Below are positions 8,787 to 45,480 of a stretch of DNA of 64,000 nucleotides, piece after piece. This DNA comes from a virus. The notes under the pieces were generated by a model, which made no database searches, was not told where the DNA came from, and worked only from the letters and a program-made list of their open reading frames with translations. A program made the position numbers and the translations under genes. The first letter of the stretch is position 1; the number at the start of each line of letters is the position of its first letter. The stretch spans positions 1-64,000 of the IMG/VR virus record IMGVR_UViG_3300034418_004641; one strand, 5' to 3'.

Positions 8787-9022
8787 TGTCAAGTAAAAAA
8801 TTTGAAGTAAAAGACTGCTGTCTTTACATATATGGGAAAGAGGTTAGATGTGAAGATGACCTAGTTAGATTAGCAGGACTGTTAGCTACAGGTTCAGTTC
8901 CTGACTACATCGATGTGTATGATTTGGAAGATGATGAGTTATTACAGCTAGAAGAAGTTCTAAGCAAGGAGATATTTTTTAAAGGGGATTGTTTGACCCC
9001 TGACGAGAATCCTGATGAATGA
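8786..9022 (+). CDS. Small acidic hypothetical protein (78 aa)
   Basis: Overlaps the helicase stop as TAATG and the polymerase start as ATGA, so it is tightly coupled between them. The product is very acidic in its second half (VYDLEDDELLQLEEVLSKE) and has no membrane segment. I recognise no family. Its position suggests an accessory of the helicase or polymerase, or a DNA-mimic-like regulator, but nothing in the sequence shows this. Confidence 0.6.
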   Translation: MSSKKFEVKDCCLYIYGKEVRCEDDLVRLAGLLATGSVPDYIDVYDLEDDELLQLEEVLSKEIFFKGDCLTPDENPDE

Positions 9023-11043
9023 ATTATATCATAACAAACAATCGTCCTTTCTTTGAGAAGATAGGAGCGTACAATTATTGCACCTTAGAAGATATGGTGC
9101 TACCTGATGTTATTGCGTTTGACTCGGAGACTACCTCCCTCAAACCTATAGACGGTCATATGTTCTCTGTGCAGATAGGTACAGGGAAGGACAACTATAT
9201 TATAGACCTTCAACAATTAGGAGGAGAGATAACATTTGATGAGGTGGCTCCTTTCCTGGAAGGCAAGACATTGGTTGGTCACAACCTTACATTCGACCTT
9301 GGGTGGTTATACAAATATAACTTTGTACCTAAAAAAGTTTACGATACATTTATTGCAAGTAAAATACTTTACAACGGAAACGGTTTAATTACAAGACACG
9401 GTTTTGGTTTTGTGATGGAGCGTGAGTTGGGTATCAGCTATGATAAGAGTGAGCAAAAGAACATTGCTAAGACCCAATTGTCAAATCCAAAAGCTATTCG
9501 ATATGCTTTCAATGACGTAGACAAAGTATTAGAATTAGTTAAAGTTTTAGGGGAAAGGTTGCGAGACAGAGGATGTGTACCAACATTCAAGCTACATTGT
9601 CGATATATCAGAGCTCTTGCCTATATGGAGCAGTGTGGTATCCCAATATCAGAAGCTAAATGGAAAGATAAAATTGAGCAAGACAAGATTGCTCTAGAAA
9701 AAGCTAAGGATGATGTGGTCAAATTTGTCTATGACGAGTTACCTAAATATAGGGACAGACAGATAGATATGTTTGATAGCTCTCCACGTATCATCCCCTT
9801 ATTGTCGTCATCTCTACAAATGATTCCTATCTTTGAGGAGTTTGGTATTGATGTACAATCGGATGAGAACCCTGACAAGAAGACTCTACACAAGGATGTT
9901 CTTAGGAGAAGTAGCCACCCTTTCGTAGAGTTATGGTTAACATACAAACAAGCAGAGCATGATGTATCTACATACGGAGAAAACATTTTAAATAAAATTA
10001 AAGATGGCAGAATTTATACTGATTTTAATCCTGTGCTGGATACTGCTAGAATTTCTACTAGGCGTGGCGGGGTTAATATTCTTAATTTTCCAGCTAATAA
10101 GAGAACTAGGGATTGCTTTGTGGCTACACATGGATATAAAATGGTCGTGGCTGACTACGAAGGCCAAGAAAATGTGGTCGGTGCTGACCTCCACCAAGAT
10201 GCAATGATGATATCCTCAATCAAGAATGGAGATGATTTACACTCTGCATTCGCAAGATTGATATTCCCTGAACTGCAAGAATTAACTGACGATGAAATTA
10301 AAAACAACCATAAAGATAAAAGGCAGTTCTCCAAAGCACCTCGCTTCTGTTTCTCGTATGGTGGGACAGGCTTTACAGCAGCTAAGAGTCTTAATATCGA
10401 GGTAAAGGAAGGGGAACGATTAGAACAGCTATACAAAGAACTACATCCTGGAGTATATACTTGGGGCAGAAAGAAACTGCAAGAATCCATTGAGAATGGG
10501 TGGGTAGAATCAGCAGATGGTTTTAAATTAGACCTTCCTTGGTTTGACCAATTCCTTGACCTTAAAAAATGGATGGATGCTACAGGAGAAGCTGATAAGA
10601 AGCTGTACAAGGCAGGTAAAGTAGAAGCTAACAAGAAAAAAGAGGCTGAAGAGAAAGGAGAGACATATACCGTAGTAAACAAAGAGGCATACAAGGTATA
10701 TACAAAGATGAGACCTAAACTTTCTAAGTACTTTTCTTGGCAAGGAAAATACTTCAGGTTGGCCTTGAACAACCCTGTTCAAGCGACTTCAGCACATATG
10801 ACAAAACGAGCCGCTTGTTTACTTTTTGATTATATAGTAGACAATGGACATTTTCGAAAGGTAAGAATATGTAATATACCCCATGATGAATTTGTTCTTG
10901 AGGTGGATGAAAGCCTAGTAGATGAGTATAAAAAAGTGCTTGAGGACTGCATGATTAAAGGTGGACAATACTATTTAACAAGTGGCTTAGTAGATATTAA
11001 GGCAGAGGCGAATATAGGAGACTCTTGGTACGAGGCAAAATAA
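9019..11043 (+). CDS. polA: Family A DNA polymerase with 3'-5' exonuclease
   Basis: The replicative polymerase. The N-terminal proofreading domain has ExoI FDSETTS (Asp 35, Glu 37), ExoII GHNLTFD (Asp 93) and ExoIII YAFND (Tyr 162, Asp 166). The polymerase domain has motif A VVADYEG (Asp 379), motif B from Arg 435 to Gly 448 (RxxxKxxxFxxxYG with Lys 439, Phe 443, Tyr 447) and motif C PHDE (Asp 623, Glu 624). Phe 443 sits at the position that discriminates ribose 3'-OH. At 674 aa it lacks a 5'-3' exonuclease domain, as usual for phage enzymes. Its last 27 residues are repeated at the end of the downstream GIY-YIG gene, marking an insertion event at its 3' end. Confidence 0.95.
   Translation: MNYIITNNRPFFEKIGAYNYCTLEDMVLPDVIAFDSETTSLKPIDGHMFSVQIGTGKDNYIIDLQQLGGEITFDEVAPFLEGKTLVGHNLTFDLGWLYKYNFVPKKVYDTFIASKILYNGNGLITRHGFGFVMERELGISYDKSEQKNIAKTQLSNPKAIRYAFNDVDKVLELVKVLGERLRDRGCVPTFKLHCRYIRALAYMEQCGIPISEAKWKDKIEQDKIALEKAKDDVVKFVYDELPKYRDRQIDMFDSSPRIIPLLSSSLQMIPIFEEFGIDVQSDENPDKKTLHKDVLRRSSHPFVELWLTYKQAEHDVSTYGENILNKIKDGRIYTDFNPVLDTARISTRRGGVNILNFPANKRTRDCFVATHGYKMVVADYEGQENVVGADLHQDAMMISSIKNGDDLHSAFARLIFPELQELTDDEIKNNHKDKRQFSKAPRFCFSYGGTGFTAAKSLNIEVKEGERLEQLYKELHPGVYTWGRKKLQESIENGWVESADGFKLDLPWFDQFLDLKKWMDATGEADKKLYKAGKVEANKKKEAEEKGETYTVVNKEAYKVYTKMRPKLSKYFSWQGKYFRLALNNPVQATSAHMTKRAACLLFDYIVDNGHFRKVRICNIPHDEFVLEVDESLVDEYKKVLEDCMIKGGQYYLTSGLVDIKAEANIGDSWYEAK
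10960..11043 (+). repeat. polA 3'-end repeat, copy 1
   Basis: Last 27 codons plus stop of the polymerase gene. The same 84 nt recur at 11975-12058 with about 73% nucleotide and 21/27 residue identity; both end in SWYEAK and TAA. Most differences are synonymous. Confidence 0.9.
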
Positions 11044-11060
11044 AAGTATTTTGTAATAAA

Positions 11061-11092
11061 TTTGGATAATTGATAAAATTGTAGTAACATTG
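11061..11092 (+). promoter_or_regulatory. Bacteroidota-type promoter of the RHH / GIY-YIG cassette
   Basis: TTTG at 11061-11064, 20 nt, then TAACATTG at 11085-11092 as -7 box. The upstream stretch TTTTGTAATAAATTTGG is shared with the promoters at 45532 and 58191 on the other strand. The -7 box ends six bases before the ATG at 11098, so the mRNA would be leaderless or nearly so. Confidence 0.6.
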
Positions 11093-11097
11093 TAATT

Positions 11098-11253
11098 ATG
11101 AAAGAAGTACAAATAATAGTAAGAACTGATTCTGAGTTAAAAGAAAGAGTAAGAAAGGCGGCTGATAAGCTAGGACTTGATATGTCTTCCTATATTAGAA
11201 TGGTTATAATAAAAGCAATGGAGCAAGACAATGGGAAAGTATCTGACAACTAA
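11098..11253 (+). CDS. Ribbon-helix-helix (Arc/CopG-like) regulator (51 aa)
   Basis: A short ORF below common length cut-offs. It starts with a beta strand (MKEVQIIVRTD), then helix A (SELKERVRKAADKLGL) and helix B (DMSSYIRMVIIKAMEQ), the ribbon-helix-helix pattern of small dimeric DNA-binding repressors. It overlaps the endonuclease gene by 23 nt (11231-11253) and has its own promoter, so it likely represses this cassette, as small repressors do for selfish nucleases and toxin-antitoxin pairs. The regulatory role is inference; the fold pattern is clear. Confidence 0.7.
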   Translation: MKEVQIIVRTDSELKERVRKAADKLGLDMSSYIRMVIIKAMEQDNGKVSDN

Positions 11254-12058
11254 AGACTGGATTGAAAGGTTCAGAGATATGCATGGTGATAAGTTTTCTT
11301 ATCCTGATGTAATTAAAGGTTCTAAAAATAGCATAAATGTTTTTTGTAATAAACATAATACTGAGTTTGAAACCTCTCCTCAATTACATTTAAGAAGTGT
11401 AAACACAGGCTGTAAAAAATGTTATGCCGATTACATAAGAGAAAGAGATAGTATAAAGCCTTTAGAAAAAATAAAAAAGTTTAAAACAGTTCATGGGGGT
11501 AAATACACTTATCACCCCGAAACCATTACTCTCTCTCAAGAAGATATGAAAATTACTTGCCCCACCCACGGAGAGTTTTGGCAACAACCATTACACCATC
11601 AGAGGGGGCATGGTTGTCCTAAGTGTGGTTACTACTCTGCTTACAAGAAAGACAGATGGGTAGAAAAGAGCAATGAAAAAAACCCTAAATTATATATCTT
11701 AGAATTGAATAAAGATGAGGAGGTGTTCTACAAAATAGGCATAACAGGGGATACTTTGGAGAAACGTTTTTCAGGAAGACTACCTTATGAATACAAAGTA
11801 GTCGCTATCGTGGAAAACGAAGCTTCTAAAATTTGGGAATTAGAAAAAAAATTATTACGTTTGACAAAAGAATACAAGTACACACCCTCTATTGATTTTG
11901 AGGGTATGACGGAATGTAGGACAGGTGGTGTAGAATTGTGTATTAAAAGTTTTGGAGAAGTGGAGGATAGCAGAGGAGGAAATTACTATCTTAGTAGTGG
12001 ATTAGTGGAGATGGGGGCAGAAGCCAATATTGGCACATCATGGTATGAAGCAAAATAA
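11231..12058 (+). CDS. GIY-YIG homing endonuclease with zinc-finger repeats and a polymerase-derived tail
   Basis: A free-standing mobile endonuclease. Residues 10-64 and 79-132 are two copies of a homing-nuclease DNA-binding repeat, each with C-x2-H then C-x2-C (Cys 39, His 42, Cys 61, Cys 64; Cys 110, His 113, Cys 129, Cys 132). Residues 153-230 form a GIY-YIG-type nuclease: LYILEL, then FYKIGIT (Lys 168-Thr 172), Arg 179 and the helix with Glu 204. The final 27 residues (249-275) match the last 27 of the adjacent DNA polymerase at 21 positions and have no place in a nuclease. The best explanation is insertion into polA 3' end with the cassette supplying a replacement tail, leaving the resident tail fused to the nuclease. 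Confidence 0.85.
   Translation: MGKYLTTKDWIERFRDMHGDKFSYPDVIKGSKNSINVFCNKHNTEFETSPQLHLRSVNTGCKKCYADYIRERDSIKPLEKIKKFKTVHGGKYTYHPETITLSQEDMKITCPTHGEFWQQPLHHQRGHGCPKCGYYSAYKKDRWVEKSNEKNPKLYILELNKDEEVFYKIGITGDTLEKRFSGRLPYEYKVVAIVENEASKIWELEKKLLRLTKEYKYTPSIDFEGMTECRTGGVELCIKSFGEVEDSRGGNYYLSSGLVEMGAEANIGTSWYEAK
11975..12058 (+). repeat. polA 3'-end repeat, copy 2 (fused to GIY-YIG gene)
   Basis: Codes for GG-N-YYLSSGLV...SWYEAK-stop, aligned without gaps to 10960-11043. The two copies bracket the RHH plus endonuclease cassette and so define its probable boundaries. Confidence 0.9.
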
Positions 12059-12060
12059 TT

Positions 12061-12771
12061 ATGGAACATAAAGTAAATATGATTGATTGGAAATTAGTAT
12101 TGATTACTGTATTGATGCTATGGGTTTGGGCATCGCTAAACAGTAAGACTGTAAACAATTATTACGATATAGAGACTGCTATAATTGTAGACTCTACGTT
12201 TGATTTGGATACAGCAGTTCTTATGGGCGATACGTTGTATGATTCTACGTATTCGTGGGATAGATTGCATTACAGGGATTATGATGCCCCTGATACTGTA
12301 ACACTTCCCTTAGTGACTCACAAACACGAGTATTGTTACCCTGTAGATGGGAGAATGACAAGCGGATACGGATGGCGTTGGGGCAGAAGTCACGATGGTA
12401 TCGACATAGCATACAATAACAGGGACACTACGAAAAGTATGTTTCCTGGAGTAGTAAGGTATTCAAAGAGGGGTTATAACGGAGGTTATGGTAACTTAGT
12501 TATTATAAGACACTTCAATGGTCTTGAGACTTACTATGCCCACCACAGAAAATTATTTGTAGAACAAGGAGACACACTAGAAGCAGGGGATGCAATTGGA
12601 CTAGTTGGGTCCACAGGGCGTTCTACAGGTCCCCACCTTCACTTGGAAACAAGATTCTTAGGTGTGCCTATCGACCCTGAGTTGATTATTAACTTAGATG
12701 ATTCAACCCTTGTGAGCGATAGTATTAATTTAATTAAAAAAGGTAGACACTATATTACCCATGGGATATAA
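12061..12771 (+). CDS. M23-family peptidoglycan endopeptidase, membrane-anchored
   Basis: Zinc peptidase that cuts peptidoglycan cross-bridges. Residues 10-25 (WKLVLITVLMLWVWAS) form an N-terminal signal anchor. The M23 core spans ~95-210: H-x3-D (His 111, Asp 115, in SHDGID), YYAHH (His 161/162) and H-x-H (His 192, His 194, in GPHLHLE), so all LytM-type zinc and catalytic residues are present. Flanking motifs SGYGWR and GNLVIIRH are typical. It starts two bases after the GIY-YIG stop and overlaps the next gene by 11 nt. With the amidase downstream it forms a lysis pair; alternatively it may act on the cell wall during infection. Confidence 0.9.
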   Translation: MEHKVNMIDWKLVLITVLMLWVWASLNSKTVNNYYDIETAIIVDSTFDLDTAVLMGDTLYDSTYSWDRLHYRDYDAPDTVTLPLVTHKHEYCYPVDGRMTSGYGWRWGRSHDGIDIAYNNRDTTKSMFPGVVRYSKRGYNGGYGNLVIIRHFNGLETYYAHHRKLFVEQGDTLEAGDAIGLVGSTGRSTGPHLHLETRFLGVPIDPELIINLDDSTLVSDSINLIKKGRHYITHGI

Positions 12772-12946
12772 AATCATAAAAAAAGTTAAAGTACACTCTC
12801 AATTACCTTCTTCTAGCGTATATTTGTTAGACAGTTTGGGAGTTGTACTAAACTTAGAATCGAAAGAAGAGGCTAAAAAACTAGTAGACCTCTTGAATGT
12901 TAACGCAGACAACAATACTGAGTATAGTGTCGCAAAGAATAAATAG
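12761..12946 (+). CDS. Small hypothetical protein (61 aa)
   Basis: Starts within the end of the M23 gene with an 11-nt overlap. Begins MGYKIIKKVKV, with a pattern of short beta strands followed by a helix (ESKEEAKKLVDLLN), which could be a small alpha/beta fold. No signal peptide or membrane segment. I recognise no family. It is followed one base later by the DUF3310 gene. Confidence 0.55.
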   Translation: MGYKIIKKVKVHSQLPSSSVYLLDSLGVVLNLESKEEAKKLVDLLNVNADNNTEYSVAKNK

Positions 12947-12947
12947 T

Positions 12948-13211
12948 ATGGGACAAAACACTAGAGACCCTTTAATGGATAATCCACACAGCCCAAAGAG
13001 GAGTGGCACTACACATCCTAAGTTCTACAACAAGAACATAGAAACTTGGGATTATATCGCAGCTCACAACTTGGATTTCTTCGAAGGGAATATTATCAAG
13101 TACGTGACTCGCCACAAATCTAAGAATGGTTTGGAGGATTTAGAGAAGGCAAGAGTTTATTTAGATAAACTGATTTCAATAACTTATAAAGATTACAATC
13201 ATGGTTTATAG
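12948..13211 (+). CDS. DUF3310 family phage protein
   Basis: 87 aa. The stretch ETWDYIAAHNLDFFEGN followed by IIKYVTRHKSKNGLEDLEKA matches the DUF3310 signature (sometimes annotated SaV-like or nucleotide-kinase-like), a small helical protein common in phage early regions; its biochemical role is not established. The ATG at 12948, one base after the previous stop, is chosen over an in-frame ATG at 12897 that would lie inside the previous gene. The end overlaps the amidase gene by 11 nt. Confidence 0.8.
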   Translation: MGQNTRDPLMDNPHSPKRSGTTHPKFYNKNIETWDYIAAHNLDFFEGNIIKYVTRHKSKNGLEDLEKARVYLDKLISITYKDYNHGL

Positions 13212-14082
13212 AATGGGAAGTAGAGGACGAATGGTAATGGAAATTCAGTCCTTTTTGGGTGCTATCGATGTAGATGGCATATTTGGTCCTCAAACAGAGG
13301 ATGCAGTAAAGACCTTTCAAAAGGTCAGAGGTTTAGTAGTTGATGGGATTGTTGGTCCTAAGACACTAGAGGCGATGAGTCTGCTAGATACGGATTTGAC
13401 CGTAGATAAAGCTATCGACTCGAAGTTTGCTTATGATACTCATTACCTGCCCACAGGAGAGTATCTAAACGGTCCTACCACAAAGGAGTATGCGTTCTTG
13501 CACTTTACAGCAGGATGGCATAACCCTTACAAGTGTATTGACCATTGGGGCAGAGATAGTAGAGGACGTATTGCAACTGAGTTTGTTTTGGGAGGTCCTT
13601 CTATTAAGGGTGACGATGATACATACGATGGCAGAATGGTACAGGCATTCCCATCAGGAGCGTATGCTTGGCACATCGGTAGAAATGGTTCTCAGTATAT
13701 GCACGAGCATTCTGTAGGATTAGAAATTTGCAACTGGGGTTATCTTAAAGAAGGTAAGACTTGGGCAGGGGTAAAAGCAGACCCTTCTCAATTTGTAACT
13801 TTAGCTGAACCTTTCAAAGGTATGAGTCAGTGGCACAGGTTCTCAGATGCACAGATAGAGAAAGTTCGGGAGTGGTTATACTTCATTGCTGAGAGAGATG
13901 GTATTGATATCCGTGAGGGACTTCCTAGATGGATTAAGAAGGAAGGTGCTAAGGCTTTTGAATGGAAAGAAGAAGCGTACAGAGGTTTGATTAAGGGTGT
14001 GCTATCCCATACAAACACAAACACAGGTAAGTGTGATATTCATCCCCAACAGGAGATGATGGACATGTTAGTTAGTTTATAG
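13201..14082 (+). CDS. N-acetylmuramoyl-L-alanine amidase endolysin with N-terminal peptidoglycan-binding domain
   Basis: Endolysin that releases stem peptides from peptidoglycan. Residues 1-60 are a PG_binding_1-type helical domain with two DGIxGPxT motifs (25-32 and 48-55). Residues ~90-285 are a zinc amidase (Amidase_2/PGRP-like): FLHFTAGW (His 101), AWHIG (His 158), VGLEICNWG, and SH-x7-CD (His 270, Cys 278). 293 aa, no signal peptide, so export needs a holin or other permeabilising protein. It overlaps DUF3310 by 11 nt and is followed by a tiny membrane protein that may help lysis. Confidence 0.9.
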   Translation: MVYRMGSRGRMVMEIQSFLGAIDVDGIFGPQTEDAVKTFQKVRGLVVDGIVGPKTLEAMSLLDTDLTVDKAIDSKFAYDTHYLPTGEYLNGPTTKEYAFLHFTAGWHNPYKCIDHWGRDSRGRIATEFVLGGPSIKGDDDTYDGRMVQAFPSGAYAWHIGRNGSQYMHEHSVGLEICNWGYLKEGKTWAGVKADPSQFVTLAEPFKGMSQWHRFSDAQIEKVREWLYFIAERDGIDIREGLPRWIKKEGAKAFEWKEEAYRGLIKGVLSHTNTNTGKCDIHPQQEMMDMLVSL

Positions 14083-42700: not shown

Positions 42701-42998
42701 GCTTCAAATTTTTACCACCATCAGCATATCTACCTGTGTATTTAAACTTTTTCATTTTTCCTCCGTTTTCCAGTGTGTTTATATTATTTAATTTATTAAG
42801 GTCATCACCTGCAATTATTGTGATTGACATTGATTGTTTAGATTTATTCGGTTTACCTAATATAGGGTCTGTTGTTATATTTTTAAATGAGTTTCTTAAC
42901 ATATTCTTTAACTCCATAGAATCAGCACATCTCATTGCTTCTTCTATAGAAGAGAACATTTCAGTTAAAGGGTTTCTGTCAAAGATACTTTTAGACAT
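39747..42998 (-). CDS. Large virion (cargo-type) protein, 1083 aa, with Gly-Met patches
   Basis: Rich in short Gly/Met/Gln patches (FQNGGMGPKVPKNQGGR at 260-276, FQNA at 320-323, NQNGGRMTPN, YQIGGMVPGYQNA, YQKGGIM, FQDGTDY, NQDG near 1031-1034). A 45-residue segment at 277-322 recurs near the C-terminus (987-1034): VPG[F/Y]TGGMI[D/N]P-x-TG, then a helix, then Q/L-x-YF. Between them lies a helical region with an Arg/Gln coiled coil (about 865-910). It overlaps the upstream gene by 8 nt. No enzyme motif. Likely a virion component; the patches may be binding or processing sites, which is speculative. Confidence 0.6.
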   Translation of the reverse strand: MSKSIFDRNPLTEMFSSIEEAMRCADSMELKNMLRNSFKNITTDPILGKPNKSKQSMSITIIAGDDLNKLNNINTLENGGKMKKFKYTGRYADGGKNLKPIPADNKGLQALAKKNPKLVMDMGFNPNSVAAKTKGKKKGPKVSKNQDVERVPETARIGDDMSSMNALKRLYYDYLAGEGAQTDRVIQAGRIFPFGQIFQAAEGITDIIYPFLTDESQAKEDKRRAIQQEATEDLEEYKQYLKDKGLYKTPFETVKGFFGFQNGGMGPKVPKNQGGRLVVPGFTGGMIDPTTGERVPMLEDYVRKGMQYFMGDTTANPPKFQNADPTIVPSVTNLDETVVTAYPNEGEMGVLNTTIYTPQNVSKKQLRQMNRNNAAQAMMSGEPLSYAELAAMYGPRKASRIIASGAGASNFNQNISGVSSANADVGDVTSTSEVGNVSSSSVSDSSGNAMDMQGANIGSGVMDNSQMVTNQNGGRMTPNLGGYPDIPYLFGYQIGGMVPGYQNAAPSIRNFPSSIEGFPNFQMPVAGSPSEGGTTEFMNSDQSVMYNERAWVEMLQNLGVDAEQLLAGGGANLPAFLDKMAPQLRNQVTGILEGAGISVPQSNAQLISGFKNLLQENPQILSELKKLENISMEDVMNLGTEALGEQGMQGLLGIINNPFFKKLEGQALQFGQAMQGSKEVQDLLGLINKARDVYDEVSSQPSTAPTTGGSAPAAGDESTAEVATAEDNKDRSNYPYKVFKNVGLDIKDFQKGQYSDRSADSNRELRRLLQEHLAAGGSPETFSVRQTAETADIEEAKRKLMENITTVPVEFEDIVPEDELEKVSLSEEQTVPTSRRQNRRANRLEKLEGRLERTQQRTADRQARRDDRQQRRADNQAVRSNQMQQIKDLREQIRAARGNAMDGMRYFPPTIGGNIPNGGQMAPAFNFAQDGILTGMRPNMMAPPSYQKGGIMNVQPMPYDPTSQDSTMLGGGTAPMFQDGTDYLRNLRVPGYTGGMINPMTGAIIRTPQDMINQGLNYFVPDSTRVSPPRNQDGQMMRGIAPSNEPYHLEKLGIAPVGGPSLRPTPLGQMMRPMPLNRIQRLR
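39897..40040 (-). repeat. C-terminal copy of the VPG-TGGM repeat in the 1083-aa protein
   Basis: Encodes LRVPGYTGGMINPMTG, a helix with PQDMINQGLNYF and ends at NQDG; aligns with 42033-42170. Confidence 0.75.
42033..42170 (-). repeat. N-terminal copy of the VPG-TGGM repeat in the 1083-aa protein
   Basis: Encodes LVVPGFTGGMIDPTTG, a helix with LEDYVRKGMQYF and ends at FQNA; aligns with 39897-40040. Confidence 0.75.
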
Positions 42999-45480
42999 AC
43001 AATGCTTGATTTAAGGGTATCTCTGTTACCATGTCACTATTAGGGAAATCATAGTCGTAACCATTTTGCATTATGACTGGTGTATCTCCGTTAGGCACAG
43101 CTAAAACATACTCAGGTAGTGGTCCACCTGCTTTTTCTTCATTCATAGTTATAGTACCTGTTGTAGGTACATTAACCATTTGATTAGGATATTCTACCAA
43201 ACCGTTAGGTGAAACAGGTAGTTGTGGTTTTTGGAAGTACTTGGCAGTATTTCGTCCAATCACAACTCCTTTGGGAGGAGGAGTACCTTGGTTGCCACCT
43301 TGTGCCATTCCTCCTTTATTACCCCCCATCATCATACCATCTTGGCCAAACTCTGTTGCCATAGGGTCGTAGGTAGAACTTTGTAGATATGATTCTAGGG
43401 ATGCTACGTCTCTGCCTTTTGTACCCCCTGTCATAATCCCTTGTCTTAATCTTTCTGCAGCTCTTTTTCTTGCATCTGCAGTGGCGATAGCTTCTGCCCT
43501 AGCTCCTTTCATTGTCCTTGCAGCTCCAAATCCAACCGAACCTAACCCTGCTCCCAACCCTATGGTTGATGCTAAAGGGCTTTCTCCTTGTAGTAAGCGG
43601 CCTGCCATTAGACCTGCACGAGCTGCTCGAGAAGTTAAATCATCGGAGCCTACCGCAGAACCTAAAGATGCTGCCATGCCAAACAGAGAATTTTGTTTTT
43701 TGGCTATGTCTTTCTGTCTTTCCTCTTCAGACACTATAGAATTATCAAAATCATCTTGATAATCAGGAATACCATCCCCATCGGAATCAGTAGTCATGTC
43801 TACAGGGCTACTTGCATCAGAGTAGGAAAAGTCTGTAGGTGTGGGGGTAGCAATCGATGGTCCTCCTAATACTCCTGGTAAAGCTTGATTGGTACCTTCA
43901 CCTGCATCAATATCTATATAATCAGAAATACCATCCATATCAAAATCAGTCATGAATGGTGAAGGCTCTGGTACATTTGCAAAATCAGCATCTACTTGTT
44001 CCATTGTGAAAGGTTGGATGCTTGGTGTTTGAATTGCAAAAGGATTAAACATAGTAGGGCTGGCATTCTGTAAGCGCATAACACCTCCCATTCCTCCGTC
44101 TAACTTGACAATATTACCTTCAGGTGTATTGGGATTACTAGCCATATAATCTTCATAATACAGTTCGCTAAATCTTTCTTCAGCTGTTTGGCCTGGGGTA
44201 AAAGGTACTCCATAAGCTCTTCTTACGCCCCCGTAATGGTCTAAAGCAGTTTGAACAGCAGCTAAATTTTGTTCACCGCTAAACCCTCCTTGAGGCCCAG
44301 CCTGATATGTTCCAGGCATATGCTCATTAACCTTATTAATAGCATCCATCACTTGGGCATTGGTTAAATTTTCATAACCTTCTGAATCTAATCCTCTAGC
44401 CTGCATAATCATGTGAAGTTCAGCAGGGTTTATTTTACCTGACCCTGTGACTAATTCATACATTCTTTTTGCCCTTTCTGGGTTAACATAGTAAGTAGAT
44501 TTAGGGTCACTTGTAAGACTGCTCATGCCATAATAATCCACCAAATCTTGAGGGCTTTGAAAAACAGTAGACAGGTCAAGGCTATATTGCTCTCCAACTC
44601 CAGAACGTGTAGCTGTGTTCCTAGTCCCTGACTGATTCACTCCTTTAGTTGCCTCATCTAGTCTTGTATAGAAATCTTGATTCTTAATAACTTTAGGGCC
44701 CATTCGTCCCCCCATTTTCATAGTTTCGGTTTCTTGGTATTCAGGTCCAATTGTCATTCTACCCTCGCTATCTTCTACTAAGGTGTAGCGGGTATCGCCA
44801 ATCATGACAGTATTGTTTTTCTTGGCTTGCTCTGCTTTTTTAGCTGCGATGTACTCTTCTTCTGTCATGGGTTTTGTCTTTTTAAAAGAACCAAGCCCTT
44901 GCAAAAAAGCTCCTCCCAACCCTGTACTGGCCTCTATTATGTTTCCTAGTGCTCTAGCTTTACCTCTAGGTCCTTGCTCCATATTGTACCCTGCTCTAGC
45001 GAAAGCTCTTTCGGGTAAATCAGTAAAAGCTTGCATATACCCGCCTGCTGTGCCTATATTTCCTAAACCTAATAAATCTACAGCCTTAGCTATTTTATTC
45101 TCTCTGCCTTCTTCAATATTAGATAACCTTTTTTGTAGCCTATTTATCGTGTTATTCCTAACTTTTTGTCCTAATGTTACAGGCTTCATGTCTGGTGTTG
45201 AAGCTTGAGGAGGACCTGCAGGTTGCATGCCTGACGGAGGATTATATGTTGTACCTTCCGTGATACCATAGTATTGCCGCATGTAAGGGTCTTGTTGTGC
45301 AGAAAAAGAAAGGTCTTCAAACTTTAAATCAATATTATCTTGAGGTAAAGTGCTTTCTAATTGCTCTATGTAATTATCATCGAAGTTAACATCAGCAATA
45401 GGTATATTCTGCACAGTCCCCTCTGCGCCAATAGAGTTAGCATCTTGAAATTTTCTTTTATTAGTAAAGTTCCTGTACAT
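42991..45480 (-). CDS. Large virion protein, 829 aa, with calcium-binding TSP3-like motifs
   Basis: Has its own promoter (45501-45532). The N-terminus carries KFQDANS (10-16), similar to the start of neighbouring genes. Two stretches are classic D-x-D-x-D-G-x-x-D calcium loops: DFDMDGISDYIDID (about residue 510-525) and DSDGDGIPDYQDDFD (about 563-578), like thrombospondin type 3 repeats that are common in secreted Bacteroidota proteins. Gly/Met patches recur (GGRMGPKVIKNQD; FGQDGMMMGGNKGGMAQGG). An Ala/Gly-rich helical part (about 600-680) may be membrane-active. It overlaps the downstream gene by 8 nt. Likely a virion protein stabilised by calcium. Confidence 0.6.
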   Translation of the reverse strand: MYRNFTNKRKFQDANSIGAEGTVQNIPIADVNFDDNYIEQLESTLPQDNIDLKFEDLSFSAQQDPYMRQYYGITEGTTYNPPSGMQPAGPPQASTPDMKPVTLGQKVRNNTINRLQKRLSNIEEGRENKIAKAVDLLGLGNIGTAGGYMQAFTDLPERAFARAGYNMEQGPRGKARALGNIIEASTGLGGAFLQGLGSFKKTKPMTEEEYIAAKKAEQAKKNNTVMIGDTRYTLVEDSEGRMTIGPEYQETETMKMGGRMGPKVIKNQDFYTRLDEATKGVNQSGTRNTATRSGVGEQYSLDLSTVFQSPQDLVDYYGMSSLTSDPKSTYYVNPERAKRMYELVTGSGKINPAELHMIMQARGLDSEGYENLTNAQVMDAINKVNEHMPGTYQAGPQGGFSGEQNLAAVQTALDHYGGVRRAYGVPFTPGQTAEERFSELYYEDYMASNPNTPEGNIVKLDGGMGGVMRLQNASPTMFNPFAIQTPSIQPFTMEQVDADFANVPEPSPFMTDFDMDGISDYIDIDAGEGTNQALPGVLGGPSIATPTPTDFSYSDASSPVDMTTDSDGDGIPDYQDDFDNSIVSEEERQKDIAKKQNSLFGMAASLGSAVGSDDLTSRAARAGLMAGRLLQGESPLASTIGLGAGLGSVGFGAARTMKGARAEAIATADARKRAAERLRQGIMTGGTKGRDVASLESYLQSSTYDPMATEFGQDGMMMGGNKGGMAQGGNQGTPPPKGVVIGRNTAKYFQKPQLPVSPNGLVEYPNQMVNVPTTGTITMNEEKAGGPLPEYVLAVPNGDTPVIMQNGYDYDFPNSDMVTEIPLNQALYV
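43741..43953 (-). other. Two TSP3-like calcium-binding loops
   Basis: D-x-D-x-D-G-x-x-D at about 43897-43953 and again at about 43741-43793 within the 829-aa gene, separated by ~35 residues rich in Thr/Pro/Ser. Confidence 0.65.

Follow-up and report, generated by a model that had tools for sequence, protein, structure and literature searches.

Why should a nuclease gene end in the tail of a DNA polymerase? This question is raised by a locus in the virus record IMGVR_UViG_3300034418_004641 of IMG/VR, of which positions 1 to 64,000 were analyzed (64,000 nucleotides, hereafter the window). On the plus strand, polA (9019-11043), coding for a family A DNA polymerase of 674 aa (Pfam DNA_pol_A 4.5e-43; 3'-5' exonuclease 6.2e-22), is followed by a cassette consisting of a 54-nt leader, a small ribbon-helix-helix (RHH)-like gene and an open reading frame (ORF) of 275 aa for a zinc-finger GIY-YIG (T5orf172-like) nuclease (11231-12058), to which a polA tail is fused. 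Comparison with related loci revealed a mosaic with two breakpoints, a separate source for each of the two polA tails, and alleles that are empty of the cassette. As the most probable origin (about 70%), we propose that a mobile RHH-like and GIY-YIG cassette from behind the polA gene of a related phage invaded the resident polA 3' end by one-sided homing.

The duplicated tail and its nuclease

The polymerase ends in GGQYYLTSGLVDIKAEANIGDSWYEAK (10960-11040, with the stop extending to 11043), and the nuclease ends in GGNYYLSSGLVEMGAEANIGTSWYEAK (11975-12055, stop to 12058). An earlier note on this DNA had pointed to a repeat of 27 residues with a common stop, and indeed 21/27 of these last residues are identical and TAA closes both ORFs. 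Using the nuclease as query, the polA tail was recovered from the window's own record (E 4.1e-9), and the last 60 aa of polA recovered the nuclease tail at the same locus (E 3e-12). Related polA loci, numbered here with the prefix L, were collected in three scans yielding 11, 39, and 80 loci, many of them being the same contigs repeated. A profile of the polA C-terminus built from 55 distinct sequences was searched against 4828 distinct ORFs of at least 60 aa from the collected loci, and its sole non-polymerase match was the window nuclease (E 3.5e-13; next best 0.071). Taken together, the E values of both searches and of the profile exclude chance as the cause of the likeness.

Each of 81 polA loci (80 fetched plus the window) was furthermore searched for a second copy of its own tail, and duplicates were found in the window and in L053 only. 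The latter is the contig of L001, which has the same two-tail structure and shows 5 mismatches to the window in 14022 bp. Comparison of C-termini across 71,402 ORF pairs in 2.05 Mb (the window and loci L053 onward) gave 48 pairs scoring at least 50. Four of them are the polymerase-nuclease pair, all from one phage (window, L053, L138, L211); the other 44, inspected by eye, were attributed to paralogy, repeats or frame overlap. Several candidates for further cases were rejected: a duplicate in L084 lies at chance level (E 0.023), the pairs in L115 and L106 looked like paralogues on reading the region, polA-like ends of the L006 and L258 nucleases gained no support from the polA-tail profile, and the DNA of the two ends considered in L258 aligns poorly. 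The fused tail as query found no match in phage records at E up to 10.

The nuclease matches PHROG endonuclease family 681 (2e-35) and, above the cut-off, the zinc-finger family DUF4379 (4.8e-6), with T5orf172 (0.023) and MUG113 both staying under the curated Pfam cut-offs. Its ORF holds a GIY-YIG-type domain in which FYKIGIT, R179, and E205, which we take to be the catalytic residues, are conserved throughout 18 sequences (the nuclease and 17 relatives). A polA tail that is standard in unrelated nucleases, regarded beforehand as evidence against a specific fusion, was not seen: 0/17 of the aligned relatives carry it, ending instead at varied points after the TEC motif, and the tail profile found this nuclease only. 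The original C-terminal residues of the nuclease probably disappeared when the join was made. The predicted structure (mean pLDDT 82, pTM 0.48) appears confident apart from residues 243-275, where pLDDT falls below 50.

Empty alleles and two breakpoints

Six distinct contigs of close relatives are cassette-free (L002, L003, L004, L005, L017, and L020, the last of which covers the polA end only). In 6/6 of them the polA stop is followed after 2 nt by the ATG of an M23 peptidase gene, the straight passage that had been anticipated for alleles lacking the cassette. In the window, this gene (12061-12771; Peptidase_M23 6.3e-28), the original right neighbour of polA, lies behind the nuclease. Scanning the viral collection for the junction of tail and M23 gene returned seven contigs, namely the six cassette-free ones and L001; presence and absence of the cassette are thus polymorphic at one site among close relatives, with two contigs filled and six empty. 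Neither the 92-kb record of L004 nor the 90-kb record of L005 contains a match to the nuclease, and the L006 record contains four.

The left breakpoint lies inside polA. Up to 10793 the window gene differs from L002 at 97/1775 and from L003 at 89/1775 positions, and from there to its end at 76/250 and 73/250 positions, respectively; nucleotide identity to the two relatives is accordingly 94.5% and 95.0% in the resident part (9019-10793) and 69.6% and 70.8% in the 3' part (10794-11043). The control pair L002-L003 shows no such step (123/1775 and 12/250 differences, 93.1% identity before and 95.2% after). Position 10793 was the best breakpoint against either relative, with 0/500 permutations giving as large a value, and it marks where a run of complete identity to L002, coding for NNPVQATSA, ends. 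A foreign 3' end has been inserted, continuing the reading frame of the resident gene and rendering polA chimeric. Among its 76 mismatches to L002, 49 fall on third codon positions, as expected for a working allele. It also contains an HDE triplet (residues 622-624) that is invariant in 9/9 aligned polymerases and is presumably the catalytic motif C of family A polymerases. To judge from these comparisons, a stretch of about 250 nt including HDE appears to have been imported from an unsampled donor. On the other side of the cassette, 683 of the 720 nt counted from M23 are identical to L002, and since this likeness resembles that of the left flank, both flanks are considered resident.

At the right breakpoint, alignments of the nuclease 3' end to each of the six cassette-free relatives start at 11944-11945, so that the nuclease ORF now terminates in 114 nt derived from the resident polA 3' end (11945-12058). 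An exact match to L003 covers the first 18 nt of this piece; the longest match reached 14 nt in 5000 first-order resampled sequences and 12 nt in 130 windows taken from the nuclease body. They are read in a frame unused by polA, and an exact match out of frame is the trace expected of an illegitimate join. A patch of 12 nt (11963-11974) then stands in place of 10 nt in the relatives, and from 11975 onward the polA frame is restored. The final 84 nt (11975-12058), comprising the 27 codons of the second tail copy and the stop, are identical to the polA tail of L004 at all 84 positions, to those of L003 and L005 at 82, of L017 and L020 at 81, and of L002 at 79, whereas the window's own, foreign polA tail (10960-11043) shares 61/84.

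Trees calculated with FastTree (local supports) for the polA body, the last 249 nt of polA, and the 84-nt tail depict the same division. In the body tree the window groups with L002 and L003; in the tree of the last 249 nt it is placed away from all cassette-free relatives, on the side of L006 and L007 (support 0.986). The tail tree, a comparison that the earlier note had asked for, placed the nuclease-fused copy among the cassette-free polymerases, as predicted there, and the window's polA tail outside of them with the outgroups L006 and L007 (support 0.949). Two further claims of that note need adjustment. It had the cassette bring a new polA tail, which agrees with the foreign polA end in kind, the size being the roughly 250 nt from 10794 to the stop and not 27 codons alone; and it had the displaced resident tail fused in frame to the nuclease, which holds for the last 27 codons (79-84/84 nt), the resident DNA starting earlier, at about 11945, and first out of frame.

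Proposed invasion, its alternatives and related cassettes

From this pattern we infer cutting by the nuclease, one-sided repair, the layout of the donor, and an order of events. The nuclease would have cut the resident polA near its 3' end, with repair copying a donor allele. On the left, homologous recombination inside polA at 10793 would have introduced some 250 nt of the donor's polA, stop included, followed by the cassette. On the right, the two alleles would have lacked homology, and the cassette would have been joined at a short match, AAAAGTTTTGG... (around 11945), in the remaining resident polA 3' end. With the donor end in place of the lost one, the polymerase would remain intact, and the last 114 nt of the resident gene would become the 3' end of the nuclease ORF, at first out of frame. 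The patch of two additional nucleotides would return the last 27 codons to the polA frame, so that the old polA stop terminates translation, 2 nt ahead of the M23 start; the patch may have been selected for ending translation beside this start, or may have arisen with the join.

The donor cassette was probably situated directly behind the donor polA, since genes of this type are found at polA ends elsewhere. A related nuclease gene overlaps the polA stop in L006, an HNH-like gene (by reading) lies about 18 nt behind polA in L008/L066, and annotated endonuclease genes share 14 nt with the polA end in PA11 (L274) and TC6 (L275), both being the same phage species, 17 nt in D22 (L276), and 38 nt in T2S1 (L277). 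Genes for endonucleases seem to settle at the polA end repeatedly.

Several observations weigh against an invasion by homing. No donor was found in the searches made: besides L001, the protein nearest to the imported end reaches only 79% identity, scans with single proteins and DNA comparison with phage records gave no other nuclease relative as donor, the search of genome contigs yielded weak polymerase matches only, and an RHH scan of viral contigs returned L001 only. The filled allele was seen in one species only, represented by two near-identical contigs (the window and L001). The right junction is not sharp, as an alignment to the window's imported polA already begins at 11930, and polA likeness may extend to the left of 11945. 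Finally, the fused tail is closest to L004 and the polA body to L002/L003, implying that the region recombined more than once.

The blurred right junction would suit an unlikely alternative, in which the donor nuclease was already fused to a tail, both junctions were homologous, and the element habitually moves with a replacement polA end and a tail-fused nuclease. The tail lying in frame and ending at the polA stop, the partial polA likeness to donor-type sequence from 11930, and the movement of such tails by fungal mobile ORFs are in line with it. Against it stand the lack of other nucleases with a polA tail, with none among the 17 aligned relatives and just the one in 4828 ORFs, and the first 18 nt of resident polA being out of frame, as after a join made without homology.

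Ordinary recombination between co-infecting phages, delivering the donor polA end and the cassette with the nuclease uninvolved, would draw on the free recombination of phage genomes and on the mosaic structure of the relatives elsewhere, their identity to the window varying along the locus for L003 and L004. That the activity of the nuclease is predicted from sequence alone also counts in its favor and against homing. We consider it quite improbable, as the inserted gene belongs to a homing-type family, the two junctions enclose it closely, and genes of this kind are repeatedly found after polA.

A gene with two alternative 3' ends that enclose a nuclease ORF might also recall a group I or other intron, splicing of polA messages leading from a point ahead of the first tail to the second one; this is scarcely credible, as a search of 9000-13300 against Rfam gave no match up to E 1, the RHH start follows the polA stop at a distance of only 54 nt, and the nuclease ORF continues into the tail without a break. 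That the polA tail was duplicated locally, or that the assembly is wrong, is conceivable for two similar tails about 1 kb apart and is already contradicted by copies sharing 61/84 nt, by an outer copy equal to the polA tails of other phages, and by a second contig (L001) with the same structure.

The first gene of the cassette (11098-11253) codes for a protein of 51 aa. Its product gave weak Pfam matches, all under curated cut-offs, to NikA-like (1.7e-4), RelB (5.1e-4), and CopG_antitoxin (7.1e-4) families, and a PHROG match to Arc-like repressors (2.8e-4). The leader (11044-11097) holds a putative promoter, the scan being near chance (7 promoter-like sites in 10900-12200 on both strands vs 4.7 +/- 1.8 expected). 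The 8-mer TTGTAGTA is present in three leaders; in this AT-rich DNA, an 8-mer common to two such leaders arose in 60% of shuffles, and the sharing being not significant, it was discarded as an RHH operator. Self-control of the cassette by the RHH-like protein may be entertained as an idea.

Relatives of this protein were sought among 11,536 small ORFs (duplicates kept) and found in L104/L105 (1.3e-10, an identical stretch on two contigs), in L258 (1.5e-6), and weakly in L207 (0.015), a mobile-type gene following directly after the RHH gene in each. L258 and L207 had been fetched by their GIY-YIG motif, making this a biased sample, and L104/L105 by polA. In L104 (3377-4220; same stretch in L105), the RHH gene overlaps the start of a classical GIY-YIG gene (by reading), away from polA. 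In L207 (1926-2766, reverse-complement coordinates), the end of the RHH gene, whose similarity is weak, lies one base ahead of a TnpB-like gene (by reading). In L258, a different phage, the minus strand (10315-12596) carries polA and, starting 54 nt behind the polA stop exactly as in the window, an RHH gene, which is followed by a related zinc-finger GIY-YIG gene and then by a GroES-like gene; the C-terminal part of the L258 polA lies in another frame than the rest of the gene. The polA-GroES neighbours of Flavobacterium phage immuto were too distant to serve as the empty allele of L258. Phage records contained two weak RHH matches, both from Streptococcus phages. It is a tentative and rather doubtful generalization that phages carry intronless RHH-like and GIY-YIG elements aimed at the polA 3' end, whose insertion would be harmless by virtue of the replacement end. 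Each transfer would then exchange the polymerase end and its HDE for a foreign allele, maybe without the target site, and L258, with its very different polA, would be a second member, its tail being not proven.

Beyond the locus itself, the position behind a 293-aa gene that follows M23 is occupied by a glycosyltransferase-like ORF of 372-377 aa (by reading) in L004, L005, and L017, and by a 179-aa ORF in the window, L002, and L003. The minus strand of the window (16324-56039) carries a series of ORFs of great length, reaching 3352 aa, that probably encode virion proteins; one of them (828 aa, 42991-45477) has no PHROG match at 1e-5.

Comparison with known systems

Homing endonucleases of the T5orf172 type, as in ICP1 and others, share with the window nuclease a T5orf172-like domain, zinc-finger repeats, and a location near essential genes (PMC10448857, accessible parts). 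The match found here stays under the curated cut-off, and those parts of the source mention no exchange of 3' ends. For free-standing endonucleases of phage T4, the accessible parts of PMC2988022 describe co-conversion, 2-nt 3' extensions left by a seg enzyme, and one-sided repair with microhomology junctions. Like the T4 seg genes, the window's GIY-YIG gene stands beside an essential gene, with an apparent co-conversion tract in polA (10794 to the stop). In T4, such genes occupy intergenic positions or divide a gene into two, and those parts do not mention any endonuclease with a displaced tail fused to it. T4 intron homing by one-sided illegitimate repair likewise combines homology on one side with microhomology on the other; it is experimental and intron-based there (PMC2988022, same parts), whereas here it is deduced from a natural junction without an intron.

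The closest parallel is provided by mobile ORFs of fungal mitochondria. The accessible parts of PMC3630166 describe a foreign 3' end, an endonuclease ORF, and a displaced native 3' end for atp6 of Allomyces macrogynus and for atp6, atp9, cox2, and nad3 of Glomus sp., where relatives are matched by the native copy but not by the inserted one. The ORF in Glomus atp9 belongs to the GIY-YIG type and is followed immediately, at the next base, by the native end. The resemblance to Allomyces atp6, to which the earlier note had referred, extends to the whole geometry as described there, including a displaced end that matches cassette-free relatives (79-84/84 nt here). In distinction from the fungal ORFs, the window comes from a virus record and not from a mitochondrial gene, its target is a phage DNA polymerase gene, an RHH-like gene is added, and the predicted nuclease, following a segment out of frame, carries the tail in frame. 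In view of its occurrence in a virus record, we regard the cassette as working alike and not as a member by descent.

No phage case of a displaced gene tail fused to an endonuclease was found in the literature searched, most subscription journals being outside its scope. With filled and empty alleles at hand, the locus presents a free-standing nuclease gene inside the coding end of an essential phage gene, with neither intron nor intein, and its sequence retains a legible trace consistent with one-sided break repair having occurred in nature. The proposed invasion would account for a chimeric DNA polymerase with a foreign, HDE-bearing end and offers a concrete cassette for studying homing, immunity through the imported end, and RHH control. 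It would extend the fungal mitochondrial pattern to phages: the pattern itself, 3'-end replacement, is known, and the phage setting, the RHH gene, and the in-frame nuclease fusion are its new features.

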